From an uncultured Alphaproteobacteria bacterium (lineage in GTDB: Bacteria > Pseudomonadota > Alphaproteobacteria > HIMB59 > GCA-002718135): a stretch of DNA of 34,884 nucleotides. Below the pieces are notes generated by a model. That model searched no databases. It was not told the DNA's origin and worked only from the letters and a program-made list of their open reading frames with translations. The stretch spans positions 72,168 through 107,051 of the forward strand of contig CACHLW010000003.1 of the NCBI GenBank assembly GCA_902580765.1, in the 5' to 3' direction. The translations under genes were made by a program, and so were the position numbers. Of the stretch, positions 29,485 to 33,487 are shown piece by piece. Position 1 is the stretch's first letter. The number at the start of each line of letters is the position of its first letter.

Positions 29485-30636
29485 ATGACAAAAAGATTAA
29501 AATTAGGAATGATAGGTGGTGGCCAAGGAGCTTTTATAGGAGCTGTTCATCGTCTATGTGCACGAATGGATGATAAATATGAATTTGTTGCTGGTTGTTT
29601 ATCTTCAACCCCTGAAAAAGCTGCAAAATCTGCTGAAGAAATTGGTCTCGATCCTTCAAGAAGTTACCCTGATTTTAAAACTATGGCTGAGGAAGAAGCT
29701 AAAAGAGATGATGGTATTGATGTAGTATCTATTGTTACACCAAATCATATGCATGCTGCACCAGCAATTGAATTTCTAAATAAAAATATTCATGTCATTT
29801 GTGACAAACCTATGACCTCTACAATGGAAGATGCTCATAAATTAGTTGATGCAGTTTCTAAATCTGATGCTCATTTTTTCTTAACTCATAATTACTCCGG
29901 TTATCCAGTCGTTAGAGGTATGAGATCACTTATTGAAAGTGGAGCACTTGGCAAAATAAGAATTGTTAAAGGATCATATCTTCAAGGCTGGCTCGGCTCA
30001 AAAGAAGAAGACACAGGTTCAAATAAACAAGCAGAATGGAGAACTGATCCTTCACGAAGTGGGGCTGCAGGAGGAGTAGGTGATATTGGTAGTCATACTA
30101 TGCATTTGTTAGAATTTATAACTCAATTAAAATTGCAATCAGTTAGTGCAGATCTTACAACTTTTGTTGAAGGAAGAAAATTAGATGATGATGCTTCAAT
30201 TATGATCAGATTAAATAATGGCGCTAAAGGATCATTATCTATTTCTCAAGTTGCGACAGGTGAAGAAAATAATTTTACTGTAGCTATTTATGGTGACAAG
30301 GGTGCATTAAAATGGAGTCAAGAAAATCCAAATTATGCAACATTTAGTCAAGTAGGGGAGGCAAGCCAGATAATAACTAGAGGTGGTTCAATTAAAGTTG
30401 AGGGAACTGAAGCTAATGTTAGAATCCCTGCAGGTCATCCAGAAGGGTATCTTGAAGCATTTGCACAAATTTACTCTGATGCTGCAGATGTTATCCAAAA
30501 TAAGGAAAATAAAGAGGAATTACTAAAGCTTCTTCCAAATATTGACGATGGTTTACACATAATGAAGTTTATAAACGCAAGTGTCGATTCTAGTTCAAAA
30601 GACTCAAAGTGGATAAATTTATCTGAAGTTATATGA
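29485..30636 (+). CDS. Gfo/Idh/MocA family NAD(P)-dependent dehydrogenase
   Basis: Oxidoreductase acting on a sugar or cyclitol. It has 383 residues. The N-terminal Rossmann fold has GGGQGAFIG (11-19), VTPNHMHA and CDKPM (the EKP-type motif, here DKP at 107-109). The C-terminal domain carries D200 and H204 in GDIGSHTMH, matching the catalytic DxxxH of the family. A strong ribosome-binding site GGAGGG (29472-29477) stands out from the weak sites of most genes here. Together with the upstream isomerase it probably forms a short sugar-catabolic module; 31 percent of the glutamate-rich C-terminal helix region is too generic to help with the substrate. Confidence 0.9.
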   Translation: MTKRLKLGMIGGGQGAFIGAVHRLCARMDDKYEFVAGCLSSTPEKAAKSAEEIGLDPSRSYPDFKTMAEEEAKRDDGIDVVSIVTPNHMHAAPAIEFLNKNIHVICDKPMTSTMEDAHKLVDAVSKSDAHFFLTHNYSGYPVVRGMRSLIESGALGKIRIVKGSYLQGWLGSKEEDTGSNKQAEWRTDPSRSGAAGGVGDIGSHTMHLLEFITQLKLQSVSADLTTFVEGRKLDDDASIMIRLNNGAKGSLSISQVATGEENNFTVAIYGDKGALKWSQENPNYATFSQVGEASQIITRGGSIKVEGTEANVRIPAGHPEGYLEAFAQIYSDAADVIQNKENKEELLKLLPNIDDGLHIMKFINASVDSSSKDSKWINLSEVI

Positions 30637-30690
30637 ATTTTCCTTAGTTTTCTTGTATTTTTTTATTCATGCAAAAAATGCATAGCAAAC

Positions 30691-30720
30691 TTTACTTAAA
30701 TATTCTTAATAAATTTTAAT
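30691..30720 (+). promoter_or_regulatory. Candidate promoter of the amtB transcript
   Basis: TTTACT (30691-30696) and TTTAAT (30715-30720) are separated by 18 bases and match the sigma70 hexamers at 4 and 5 of 6 positions. Transcription from it would start near 30728, a few bases before the first aptamer. In DNA this AT-rich such matches arise often by chance, so support comes mainly from position. I see no sigma54-type GG-GC pair. Confidence 0.35.
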
Positions 30721-30734
30721 AATAAAGTAAATCA

Positions 30735-30795
30735 GCATTACGTTCATCATTCTTATTGAATGACGGAAGTAGACGAATGTCGAAGGAACGCATGC
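30735..30795 (+). ncRNA. Glutamine riboswitch aptamer (glnA motif), copy 1
   Basis: Conserved blocks are CGTTCA (30741-30746), CGGAAGTAG (30764-30772) and CGAAGGAACG (30781-30790). These match the glnA RNA motif, the glutamine-binding riboswitch, as I remember its consensus. Pairing fits a three-way junction. P1 is CGTTC (30741-30745) with GAACG (30786-30790), extended by GCAT (30735-30738) with ATGC (30792-30795). P2 is TCATTC (30747-30752) with GAATGA (30758-30763) and a five-base loop. P3 is GAC (30772-30774) with GTC (30779-30781). It lies in the leader of the ammonium transporter, a sensible target for a glutamine sensor. Confidence 0.88.
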
Positions 30796-30808
30796 AAAGT
30801 TATAAAAT

Positions 30809-30857
30809 CGTTCAATTTGCAGTTTGCAAATCGGAAGTAGGTTAAACCGAAGGAACG
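30809..30857 (+). ncRNA. Glutamine riboswitch aptamer (glnA motif), copy 2
   Basis: Second copy, 68 bases after the first and separated from it by 13 bases. It has the same three blocks: CGTTCA (30809-30814), CGGAAGTAG (30832-30840) and CGAAGGAACG (30848-30857). P1 is CGTTC with GAACG (30853-30857). P2 is ATTTGCA (30815-30821) with TGCAAAT (30825-30831). P3 is GGT (30840-30842) with ACC (30846-30848). The junction bases are identical to copy 1 while the helices P2 and P3 differ completely but still pair. This covariation shows that structure is under selection, and is not a recent duplication of raw sequence. Confidence 0.88.
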
Positions 30858-30862
30858 CGGAT

Positions 30863-30946
30863 CTTAGTAATTAATTTCCATAGCTAAGCATGAAAAGTAA
30901 CACATGACTCAGTGTGAGCCATGTACTGTGAAATTTATAATGGAGG
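30863..30946 (+). promoter_or_regulatory. Possible riboswitch expression platform of amtB
   Basis: TTTCCAT (30875-30881) can pair with ATGGAGG (30940-30946), which includes the ribosome-binding site GGAGG of amtB (five Watson-Crick pairs plus two G-U). CTTAG (30863-30867) with CTAAG (30884-30888) would trap the same anti-site in a loop. A separate hairpin pairs ACATG (30902-30906) with CATGT (30920-30924) and CTCA with TGAG inside. No T-run follows, so control of translation is more likely than termination. The pairings are seen; the switching is inferred. Confidence 0.45.
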
Positions 30947-30950
30947 ATTA

Positions 30951-32237
30951 ATGTTAAAAAAATCTATATATTTCATTGGCATTGTAACTGTCTTCTTACT
31001 CTTTAGTTCATACGCAAGAGCAGAGGTAGATGGTGAAGTGCAATACATATTAAATACTTTCCTATTTCTTGTATCTGGGTTCTTGGTCATGTGGATGGCA
31101 GCAGGATTTGCAATGCTTGAATCAGGACTTGTTACATCAAAAAGTGTAGCAACAATTGCAGCTAAAAACATCGGCTTGTATTCAATTGCAGGAATAATGT
31201 TTTGGTTAGTCGGATACAATATGGCTTACGGTATACCCGCTGGTGGATTTATTGGATCTCCAATTCCTTGGAGTGATGGTAGTGCTGTCGATACAGGGTA
31301 TTCAGATGGTTCTGACTGGTTCTTTCAGATGGTATTTTGTGCAACAACTTGCTCAATTGTATCTGGAACACTAGCTGAAAGAATTAAAATTTGGCCATTC
31401 TTTATTTTTTGTGCTTTATTAACTGGTTTCATTTATCCAATCGAAATGGGTTGGCAGTGGGGCGGAGGATACTTAGCGGAAGCTGGTTTCTCAGATTTTG
31501 CTGGTTCAACTCTAGTACATAGTGCAGGAGCAGCAGCAGCACTTGCTGGTGCAATTTTATTAGGCCCAAGATTAGGAAGGTTCACTGATAGTGGTGAAGC
31601 AGCTCCAATGGAGCCTTTTGCAAATTCTTCAATACCTCTTGCAACTCTTGGTGTATTTATCCTATGGCTTGGATGGTTCGGATTTAATGGTGGATCACAA
31701 CTTGCAATGGGTACATTTGATGATGTTACAGCAGTAGCAACAATATATATTAATACTAACTTGGCAGCTGGTGCAGGAGTAATGGCTTGTGCAGTAATTT
31801 CAAGACTAGTAACTGGTAAAACAGATGTTGTTATGATGCTTAATGGTGCATTAGGTGGTCTAGTAGCAATTACAGCAGAACCATTAGCTCCATCACCAAT
31901 TTTAGCAATAATCATTGGTGCAGTTGGTGGTTTAATTGTCTTCTACGGTACTAGACTTTTAATATCTCTAAAAATTGATGACGTTGTAGGTGCAATTCCT
32001 GTTCACGGTTTTGCTGGAATTTTTGGAACATTAGTTGTTCCGATTTCAAACAGTGCTGCAAGTTTTGGAGCTCAACTCTACGGTATAATAGCAATTAATG
32101 TTTTCGTTTTTGTTGTATCATTTATTATTTGGTACATCATGAAAATGCTCTTTGGTATTAGAATTAGTGAAGAGGCTGAAAAACTTGGAACAGATAAATC
32201 TGAAGTAGGCGTAATGGCTTACAGCATCAGAGACTAA
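30951..32237 (+). CDS. amtB: Ammonium transporter
   Basis: Trimeric inner-membrane channel for ammonium uptake. I start it at the ATG at 30951, after GGAGG (30942-30946), giving 428 residues. The in-frame ATG at 30921 lies inside the leader hairpin and has no ribosome-binding site. The N-terminus is a signal peptide, MLKKSIYFIGI to SSYARA, as in E. coli AmtB. Conserved parts are WMAAGFAMLESGLV, KNIG, the pore twin histidines in LVHSAGA and VHGFAG, and GWFGFNGGS. No glnK gene is next to it, which is unusual. Its leader carries two glutamine-riboswitch-type aptamers, so expression probably follows the cell's glutamine level. Confidence 0.96.
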   Translation: MLKKSIYFIGIVTVFLLFSSYARAEVDGEVQYILNTFLFLVSGFLVMWMAAGFAMLESGLVTSKSVATIAAKNIGLYSIAGIMFWLVGYNMAYGIPAGGFIGSPIPWSDGSAVDTGYSDGSDWFFQMVFCATTCSIVSGTLAERIKIWPFFIFCALLTGFIYPIEMGWQWGGGYLAEAGFSDFAGSTLVHSAGAAAALAGAILLGPRLGRFTDSGEAAPMEPFANSSIPLATLGVFILWLGWFGFNGGSQLAMGTFDDVTAVATIYINTNLAAGAGVMACAVISRLVTGKTDVVMMLNGALGGLVAITAEPLAPSPILAIIIGAVGGLIVFYGTRLLISLKIDDVVGAIPVHGFAGIFGTLVVPISNSAASFGAQLYGIIAINVFVFVVSFIIWYIMKMLFGIRISEEAEKLGTDKSEVGVMAYSIRD

Positions 32238-32337: not shown

Positions 32338-32712
32338 ATGACAGAAACAGAAATTATTAAAGAAAAAAAGAGAAATATATATTCCAGTTTTTTTTCAGAA
32401 GATTATGTTTCAAAATTTTTATTTAAATCAATTTTACATCATGTTATTTCATTAGAAATTTATGAAAATAATAGATTAAATGGAATTTCATTTGAAACAA
32501 TTTGTGCAAATATACCAAAGTCAATTGGTTCAAGATCATCTATTCAATCTATACTAAACGAGGCTTTGGAAAAAAATATTTTTACTAAAGAACAGAGTAA
32601 AACAGATAAGCGAATTAAAAATTATTACTTAAGTAATAACTTTTTCAATATGATTAATACTTGGTTACAGAAAGAGGGGTCTTATTTCAGTAAGTTGAGT
32701 CCAAGAAATTAA
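32338..32712 (+). CDS. Winged-helix (MarR-like) DNA-binding protein, putative
   Basis: A 124-residue soluble protein. I do not recognise the exact family. Residues 65-100 (SIGSRSSIQSILNEALEK, then a basic turn with SKTDKRIKNYYLS) look like the recognition helix and wing of MarR-like regulators, in which a DKR segment precedes the wing strand. The N-terminal part is helical. It lies 100 bases after amtB, behind the hairpin at 32286, so it may have its own transcript. A role in regulating amtB is possible but not shown. Confidence 0.65.
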   Translation: MTETEIIKEKKRNIYSSFFSEDYVSKFLFKSILHHVISLEIYENNRLNGISFETICANIPKSIGSRSSIQSILNEALEKNIFTKEQSKTDKRIKNYYLSNNFFNMINTWLQKEGSYFSKLSPRN

Positions 32713-32743
32713 TTTTAATTTAAATCAATCAGAGAAATTATAC

Positions 32744-32935
32744 ATGAAAACATCATTTATTATTAGCGGAAAGAAACATATTTTGAAATATGAAAGAAAA
32801 ATGCCTGAAAAAGAAGTAATTAAAATGAAATCATTTGTGACAAGTAAGGGTACTAAACTTACAAAAACTGCAAAATTTAAAATAAAAAAAGTTTTAGAAA
32901 AAGATAAAGAAAGGGTTTTTGATATTGTTCTATAA
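32744..32935 (+). CDS. Small basic hypothetical protein
   Basis: A 63-residue frame with ATG at 32744, very rich in lysine and lacking hydrophobic segments. No family is recognised. It begins 31 bases after the winged-helix gene and stops exactly one base before the stop codon of the opposing yqgE gene, a neat fit typical of this genome. The ribosome-binding site is weak (CAGAGAAA). A frame on the opposite strand over the same bases (32725-32973) overlaps yqgE and is less likely. In AT-rich DNA a lysine-rich frame of this length can occur by chance. Confidence 0.45.
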   Translation: MKTSFIISGKKHILKYERKMPEKEVIKMKSFVTSKGTKLTKTAKFKIKKVLEKDKERVFDIVL

Positions 32936-33487
32936 TTAACAATTTCCAGAGAATAATGAAAGTTTACTTGCATCTATTCCTAATAAATTAAATGCATCCT
33001 TCCACTTATTATTGACTTTTTCGTCAAAAATAAAATCACTATCTGCTTTTAGCGTCATCCAGCTATTTGAAGCTAATTCCTTTTCAATTTGTCCTGGACC
33101 CCATCCTGCGTATCCAAGAGCTAGGATACTATTCTTTGGGCCATTACCTTTTGAAAGATCTTCAAAAAATTCTGAAGTACTAGTCAACGCAACACCTTTA
33201 TCTATTGTTAAGGTTTCTTTTTGAATTACTTCATCAGAGTGTAAAACAAATCCTCTTCCACTTTCAACTGGGCCGCCATAACGAATATAGAGCTTTTTAT
33301 CCTCTAATGGCTTGTCTATACCTAATTGTTCAAGCAAATCGGGGTAAAGATCATAATCAATTTTCTTATTAATTATAATACCCATAGCCCCATCTTTTGA
33401 GTGTGCGCACATATAAATCACTGTTTTTTCAAATCTATCATCTTCTAATGAAGGCATTGAAATTAAGAACTGACCAGTTAAATTCAT
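32936..33487 (-). CDS. yqgE: YqgE/AlgH family protein (UPF0301)
   Basis: A conserved cytoplasmic protein of unknown biochemical role. It has 183 residues, normal for the family. The opening LTGQFLISMPSLEDDRFEKTVIYMCAHSKDGAMG is diagnostic in parts (QFLISMP, DDRFEKTVIY, GAMGIIINK). Later blocks are GGPVESGRGFVLH, LALGYAGWGPGQIEKEL and NSWM. In alphaproteobacteria it is often found beside a DsbD/ScsB-type thiol reductase gene, as here, where the two are divergent across 57 bases of AT-rich DNA. Confidence 0.94.
   Translation of the reverse strand: MNLTGQFLISMPSLEDDRFEKTVIYMCAHSKDGAMGIIINKKIDYDLYPDLLEQLGIDKPLEDKKLYIRYGGPVESGRGFVLHSDEVIQKETLTIDKGVALTSTSEFFEDLSKGNGPKNSILALGYAGWGPGQIEKELASNSWMTLKADSDFIFDEKVNNKWKDAFNLLGIDASKLSLFSGNC

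Follow-up and report, generated by a model that had tools for sequence, protein, structure and literature searches.

The 5′ leader of the ammonium transporter gene amtB in the DNA analysed here (the window, 34,884 nucleotides from an uncultured alphaproteobacterium) carries two predicted glutamine aptamers in tandem, and we consider it probable that this two-aptamer leader sets AmtB translation by the cellular glutamine level. A broader reading, which we put forward tentatively, is that an integrated riboswitch, in which two aptamers act via a conserved inter-aptamer helix on one pivot strand, took over from the protein glutamine-sensing cascade (GlnD, GlnE and a glnK gene before amtB) in controlling how ammonium is taken up and assimilated across an ocean family of Alphaproteobacteria, and that a like exchange took place separately before glutamine synthetase in SAR86-type Gammaproteobacteria. 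If true, this would be a case of an RNA sensor supplanting a signalling cascade made of proteins in bacteria with streamlined genomes.

Tandem aptamers in the amtB leader

The initial annotation had pointed to three sequence blocks lying in two copies, in register and 68 bases apart, and the indices read from the sequence agree: the blocks start at 30741 and 30809 (CGTTCA), at 30764 and 30832 (CGGAAGTAG), and at 30781 and 30849 (CGAAGGAACG). Its assignment of both copies to the glnA-type glutamine riboswitch (RF01739) is borne out by a cmscan search against Rfam 15, in which aptamer 1 (30739–30794, plus strand; 62.1 bits, E 1.4e-11) and aptamer 2 (30807–30861, plus strand; 59.7 bits, E 6.3e-11) match the model over its full length against a gathering score of 35. 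In the cmscan alignments, helices P1, P2 and P3 are formed in both aptamers with zero non-standard pairs marked, and P2 and P3 are unlike in sequence between the copies yet paired in both, as had been proposed. The CGGAAGUA core and GAAGGAACGC, which RF01739 requires, are present in both aptamers, and these columns are invariant over 36 non-redundant tandem sites, the patterns used for finding the sites having contained the same letters. By comparison, the Downstream-peptide family (RF01704), which had been named as a second model to consider, gives no match in the window at the gathering threshold and none in 30600–31000 at E ≤ 1; no Rfam family besides RF01739 was found in this interval at E up to 1. 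Membership in RF01739 suggests that both predicted aptamers would bind L-glutamine.

The pair sits in the 5′ leader of a nitrogen-metabolism gene. The frame behind it encodes an ammonium transporter of 428 aa (amtB, 30951–32237, plus strand; PF00909 Ammonium_transp, E 1.3e-97), preceded by the Shine-Dalgarno sequence AUGGAGG at 30940–30946, which was read from the sequence together with the ATG at 30951–30953 (30940–30953, plus strand). This ATG was chosen as the likely start, the longest open reading frame beginning at 30921. The feature extends beyond its earlier description, since a conserved linker and a conserved downstream segment carry it towards the start codon.

Between the conserved segment and the Shine-Dalgarno sequence, a hairpin of 13 pairs (30899–30927, plus strand) appears in the minimum free energy (MFE) fold and in a stem call on the minus strand, and it may act as a spacer. 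As an alternative to control of translation, transcription could end at the hairpin that separates the segment from the start codon; we regard this as improbable. Some glnA leaders (L203, L207 and L094) do have a long hairpin followed by a T run, but no T run follows the hairpin in the amt and ATP-grasp leaders, and the sole terminator-like site called in the window leader lies on the minus strand, with none on the plus strand, so that termination is not supported as the main mechanism in the window.

A putative helix P0 and a possible pairing at the ribosome-binding site

The linker between the aptamers contains the putative 5′ strand of a further helix, P0 (CAUGC at 30791–30795 and AGUUAU at 30798–30803; 30791–30803, plus strand), which abuts the 3′ strand of aptamer 1 P1 (30786–30790). 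Its 3′ strand (AUAGCU at 30880–30885 and GCAUG at 30888–30892; 30880–30892, plus strand) is part of a conserved segment about 17–23 bases behind aptamer 2, in which CATARCTA is separated from GCATG by one or two bases. CAUGC would pair with GCAUG and AGUUAU with AUARCU, giving a helix of 11 pairs that would enclose aptamer 2. P0 is present in both the MFE and the centroid fold of the window leader, which was rejected as a proof of structure on its own, as its stability is no better than that of shuffles (z −0.32).

We examined the linker and the segment over a collection of at least 224 sites, 154 of which remained after dropping identical leaders; most came from a pattern scan that demanded a tandem. 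Among the matches listed, the first downstream frame of the 154 distinct sites is amt at 54, glnA at 54, ATP-grasp at 29 and another frame at 17, site counts per target class carrying no information on frequency. The segment, nearly invariant over 13–16 bases, lies behind 125 of the 154 distinct sites among the matches listed (amt, 50/54; glnA, 45/54; ATP-grasp, 29/29; and one unassigned site). The leaders without it are nine of the SAR86 type before glutamine synthetase, three amt leaders with a single aptamer and other site types, and the SAR116 amt leader L035, which carries a variant, was scored as a miss; two sites were too short to judge. The linker is as conserved as the segment, and the two occur together, the three single-aptamer amt sites being without the segment.

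An exact search of 14 genomes returned 25 matches to the segment, 24 of them just behind a tandem, and the reversed pattern gave zero matches in the same genomes. The remaining match, aptamer-free and inside a coding frame (G111), was taken as chance rather than as a real site, and the exact search found no segment in the RF01739-free genomes G002, G003 and G004. The near-invariance of the segment over its 13–16 bases would also suit a binding site for a protein or a small RNA that is no partner of the linker. We give this explanation a slim chance, as the segment is complementary to the equally conserved linker, and all matches but the one inside a gene lie behind tandem aptamers.

Pairing of the linker with the 60 nt behind aptamer 2 reaches a mean of −11.8 kcal/mol over 36 non-redundant sites, as compared with −5.9 for shuffles; at each of the 36 sites at most 10 of 200 shuffles matched the real linker, and at 25 of them at most 2 of 200 did. 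Among the matches listed, 1339 of 1353 P0 cells over 123 sites are canonical, as against 10–32% when one side was slid; pairs were counted by script on hand-matched strands, MAFFT having placed the glnA linker one column off. No compensatory double change was found in P0 over the 123 sites, whose 9 strand combinations contain one-sided changes only. Furthermore, the GCAUG arm of P0 has a mean pairing probability of 0.32 (median 0.12) over 33 full leaders, P0 not being the main fold, and in glnA leaders a fold competing with P0 wins.

These last results, together with the classing of tandem glutamine riboswitches as pseudo-cooperative (excerpts of PMC9481103), would fit two ordinary glutamine aptamers in series that act singly, with a linker and a segment that form no P0. 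This explanation is somewhat doubtful but deserves weight: against it stand the near-invariant, co-occurring linker and segment, complementary far beyond shuffles, and the near absence of the segment elsewhere in the genomes searched. We moderately favour a putative P0 that would link the aptamers. Since a conserved helix would be able to couple them, a steeper glutamine response from two aptamers, as the initial annotation had suggested, is plausible.

The segment is also complementary to the start regions of its target genes: in amtB it matches the Shine-Dalgarno sequence and in glnA the start codon, while for ATP-grasp a single leader was checked, in which it matches the region where the leader frame starts. 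The candidate switching strand AUUUCCAU (30874–30881, plus strand) can pair either with the Shine-Dalgarno region, as in the RNAalifold helix, or with GGAAGU (30833–30838) of the aptamer 2 core, as in the MFE fold. In non-redundant subsets of the amt (17 of 19) and glnA (13 of 14) leaders, the only consensus helix given by RNAalifold joins the segment to the Shine-Dalgarno sequence in amt leaders and to the start codon AUGAAA in glnA leaders; no covariation was found in this helix in either subset. The pairing of the segment with its own start region is stronger than with swapped ones in glnA leaders (−7.2 versus −5.5 and −5.0) and in amt leaders (−6.8 versus −5.9 and −5.8), whereas in ATP-grasp leaders the own start region (−6.0, n = 2) has no advantage over the swap with amt (−6.5). 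The conserved segment thus looks like a pivot strand, engaged either in P0 or at the ribosome-binding site. As far as our searches of the open-licence literature reach, P0 and the pivot strand are new.

In the mechanism that we propose, the pivot segment would be held either in P0 or in a structure blocking the ribosome-binding site, and glutamine binding in both aptamers would decide between the two. In the absence of glutamine, the switching strand would be held by P0 and by GGAAGU of the aptamer 2 core, leaving the site open; upon binding, the ligand would take the aptamer core and the switching strand would close the site. High glutamine would then mean less AmtB and less glutamine synthetase, an OFF switch, as is expected from physiology.

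The constrained folding does not support this direction. When both aptamers were forced to fold in 19 amt leaders, the probability of P0 rose from 0.55 to 0.95 and the accessibility of the start codon from 0.45 to 0.77, with 15 leaders more open and 2 less, pseudoknots and ligand energy lying outside the calculation; in glnA leaders there was almost no change. Because the amt result leans towards ON and the glutamine riboswitches studied so far, of type 1 and type 2, are ON switches that activate expression (excerpts of PMC6316151), we give OFF only modest odds. An ON switch, in which glutamine favours P0 and thereby frees the ribosome-binding site so that AmtB rises with glutamine, has both these observations in its favour and is still unlikely in our estimate: more ammonium uptake and glutamine synthetase at plentiful glutamine would be the reverse of usual nitrogen control, the glnA leaders are without such an effect, and nearest-neighbour folding ignores the ligand and tertiary contacts.

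Carrier genomes, target genes and the distribution of GlnD

The window belongs to a draft genome of 1.12 Mb (66% complete) in which four aptamers were found: besides the pair before amtB, another contig carries a pair ahead of an operon that combines circularly permuted ATP-grasp, Alpha-E and transglutaminase-like genes. Among 150 genomes of the order, RF01739 is present in 95 of the 98 sampled from the family of the window (f1; the 98 being these 95 and 3 without it) and in none of the other 52, of which 51 belong to the sister family f2 and the remaining one (G095) is not f1. Tandems precede amtB in related genomes too. The presence of RF01739 in 95 of 98 genomes of the family, the RF01739 matches in the window and the Amt domain uphold the original description of tandem glnA-type aptamers before amtB in what looked like a small-genome alphaproteobacterium. 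Across the class, RF01739 was found in 6 of 385 genomes, namely the window genome, G001 and four genomes of family f10 with a single aptamer each. A search that required no tandem covered 12 hand-chosen genomes of the order, 10 of which have matches; of the 50 aptamers in these, 48 are paired in tandem; the two unpaired ones are in G021 and G098.

Within f1, RF01739 lies before amtB, a second amtB, glnA and the circularly permuted ATP-grasp operon, and the fullest genomes have four pairs, before the two amtB genes, glnA and ATP-grasp. The glnA-associated pair is located between glnB and glnA; in the sister-family genome G002, the glnB–glnA gap is 44 bases and holds no aptamer. In G008, also of the sister family, a second PII gene (glnK) directly precedes amtB; among the amtB loci read, none with an aptamer pair has this arrangement. 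The definition of the carrier family and the list of its target genes are new within the open-licence literature that we searched.

Several observations concern individual loci. In the window, a frame for a 124-aa protein (32338–32712) separates amtB from the place of the second amtB; the protein has 89% identity in G001, where the second amtB with its own tandem comes after this small frame; the stretch is missing from the window (32338–32935 region), in which a minus-strand gene (32936–33487), 98% identical to the G001 neighbour, lies 223 bases past the small frame. In L005, L204 and L208, a lone aptamer that has neither a linker partner nor the segment is followed by another Amt type (427 aa, MTLEELNVFV...). 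The single RF01739 aptamers of f10 (L218, L219, L220 and L221) stand before the gene of a 468-aa protein with 61–62% identity to the circularly permuted ATP-grasp protein of the window genome, and two alphaproteobacterial families therefore put this operon behind a glutamine riboswitch, which gives a lead on the role of the operon. The ATP-grasp leaders contain a frame of 17–20 codons whose end coincides with the ATP-grasp start or lies close to it (five leaders; L034, 11536–11632), and translational coupling is possible there.

Outside these families, triple glutamine aptamers precede a protein of 202–203 aa, outer-membrane-porin-like by eye, in L043 and L096. In Gammaproteobacteria, SAR86-like and others, tandems whose linker measures 11 bases (L039, L073, L074, L092, L113 and L135) precede a frame of 53–55 aa that ends in FFPYYL and whose Shine-Dalgarno sequence can pair just behind P1; as a guess, this frame is perhaps an analogue of the cyanobacterial factors that inactivate glutamine synthetase. 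The SAR86-type glutamine synthetase leaders (L058, L062, L093, L117, L130 and others) have a different linker of 24–27 bases, and a downstream hairpin, GUUAAAC...GUUUAAC, stands where P0 would be.

Enteric bacteria sense glutamine through the uridylyltransferase GlnD, which in turn sets PII (excerpts of PMC6316151). A GlnD match (TIGR01693) was found in 42 of the 150 genomes analysed from the order, each of them a member of the sister family (42/52 versus 0/98 in f1), and GlnE in 9 of 10 sister-family genomes as compared with 0 of 15 of the family of the window; the genomes are incomplete, and GlnD and GlnE together amount to one evolutionary contrast. A second contrast comes from eight SAR86-type genomes that have the riboswitch before glutamine synthetase and no GlnD match, while GlnD is present in 11 of 12 genomes with the tandem before a small frame. 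PII is kept in f1, in one copy in the matching genomes, and the T-loop sequence ELYRGAEY is found in 4/4 sister-family sequences versus 0/13 of f1.

Three further candidates were discarded. A loss of the uridylylation tyrosine from PII does not hold, a tyrosine standing at the aligned Tyr51 in 6 of 7 aligned sequences and, by eye, in 12 of 13. NtrC (TIGR01818) does not separate the families, with 0/25 over the curated cut-off and weaker matches in 25/25, nor does GlnE separate riboswitch types outside the order, where it is present in 1 of 26.

Several genomes speak against a simple rule: the SAR116 genome G531 combines GlnD with a tandem before amt, RF01739 and GlnD stand together in 3 of 4 f10 genomes, the f1 genome G003 has neither, and 4 of 17 other Alphaproteobacteria are likewise without GlnD and RF01739. 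On the basis of gene content, we infer that in f1 the RNA does the work of the GlnD and GlnE of the sister family. The reciprocal pattern of RF01739 and GlnD appears to be new, to the extent of our open-licence literature searches.

Comparison with known systems

The class itself is not new, because earlier work had come upon glnA RNAs in tandem ahead of ammonium transporter genes: in 2010, glnA RNAs, some in tandem, were described before PII, glutamine synthetase, glutamate synthase and ammonium transporter genes in environmental DNA (excerpts of PMC2864571). A census of tandem glutamine riboswitches counts 157 doublets and 4 triplets (PMC9481103, in part), and marine phages also carry glutamine riboswitches (PMC9004378, in part). 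The window type shares with type 1 RF01739 the core sequence, the three-helix fold, the tandem layout and the association with nitrogen genes including ammonium transporters (PMC2864571). As compared with the excerpted descriptions of RF01739, it adds the conserved linker, the segment and the pairing at the ribosome site (PMC2864571, PMC6316151). In addition, where these excerpts name cyanobacteria and marine sequences as taxa (PMC2864571), a defined alphaproteobacterial family carries the window type. The excerpted review places the glutamine synthetase, PII and ammonium transporter cases solely in environmental sequences from strains not in culture (PMC6316151); relative to this placement, the carrier family and its targets are now given, and gene content ties the RNA to the apparent loss of the usual protein glutamine sensor.

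The gifB riboswitch of Synechocystis likewise has a glutamine aptamer of type 1 in a 5′ leader related to nitrogen. It acts as an ON switch on a glutamine synthetase inhibitor, whereas the window type lies before amtB and glnA themselves, for which OFF would be expected (PMC6316151, in part). The GlnD–GlnE–PII cascade also adjusts glutamine synthetase to glutamine (PMC6316151, in part), but it is a protein cascade, and the family of the window has GlnD in 0/98 and GlnE in 0/15 genomes. The Downstream-peptide RNA (RF01704), the type 2 glutamine riboswitch, has a similar core (PMC2864571, in part). By comparison, the window leader is without a match to the RF01704 model at E ≤ 1.

The tandem glycine riboswitch combines two like aptamers with a conserved linker, a P0 helix and a linker interaction. 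The window type resembles it in its two like aptamers, its conserved linker and a possible helix outside the aptamers. It differs in ligand and fold, and its P0 would surround aptamer 2, in competition with the pairing at the ribosome site.
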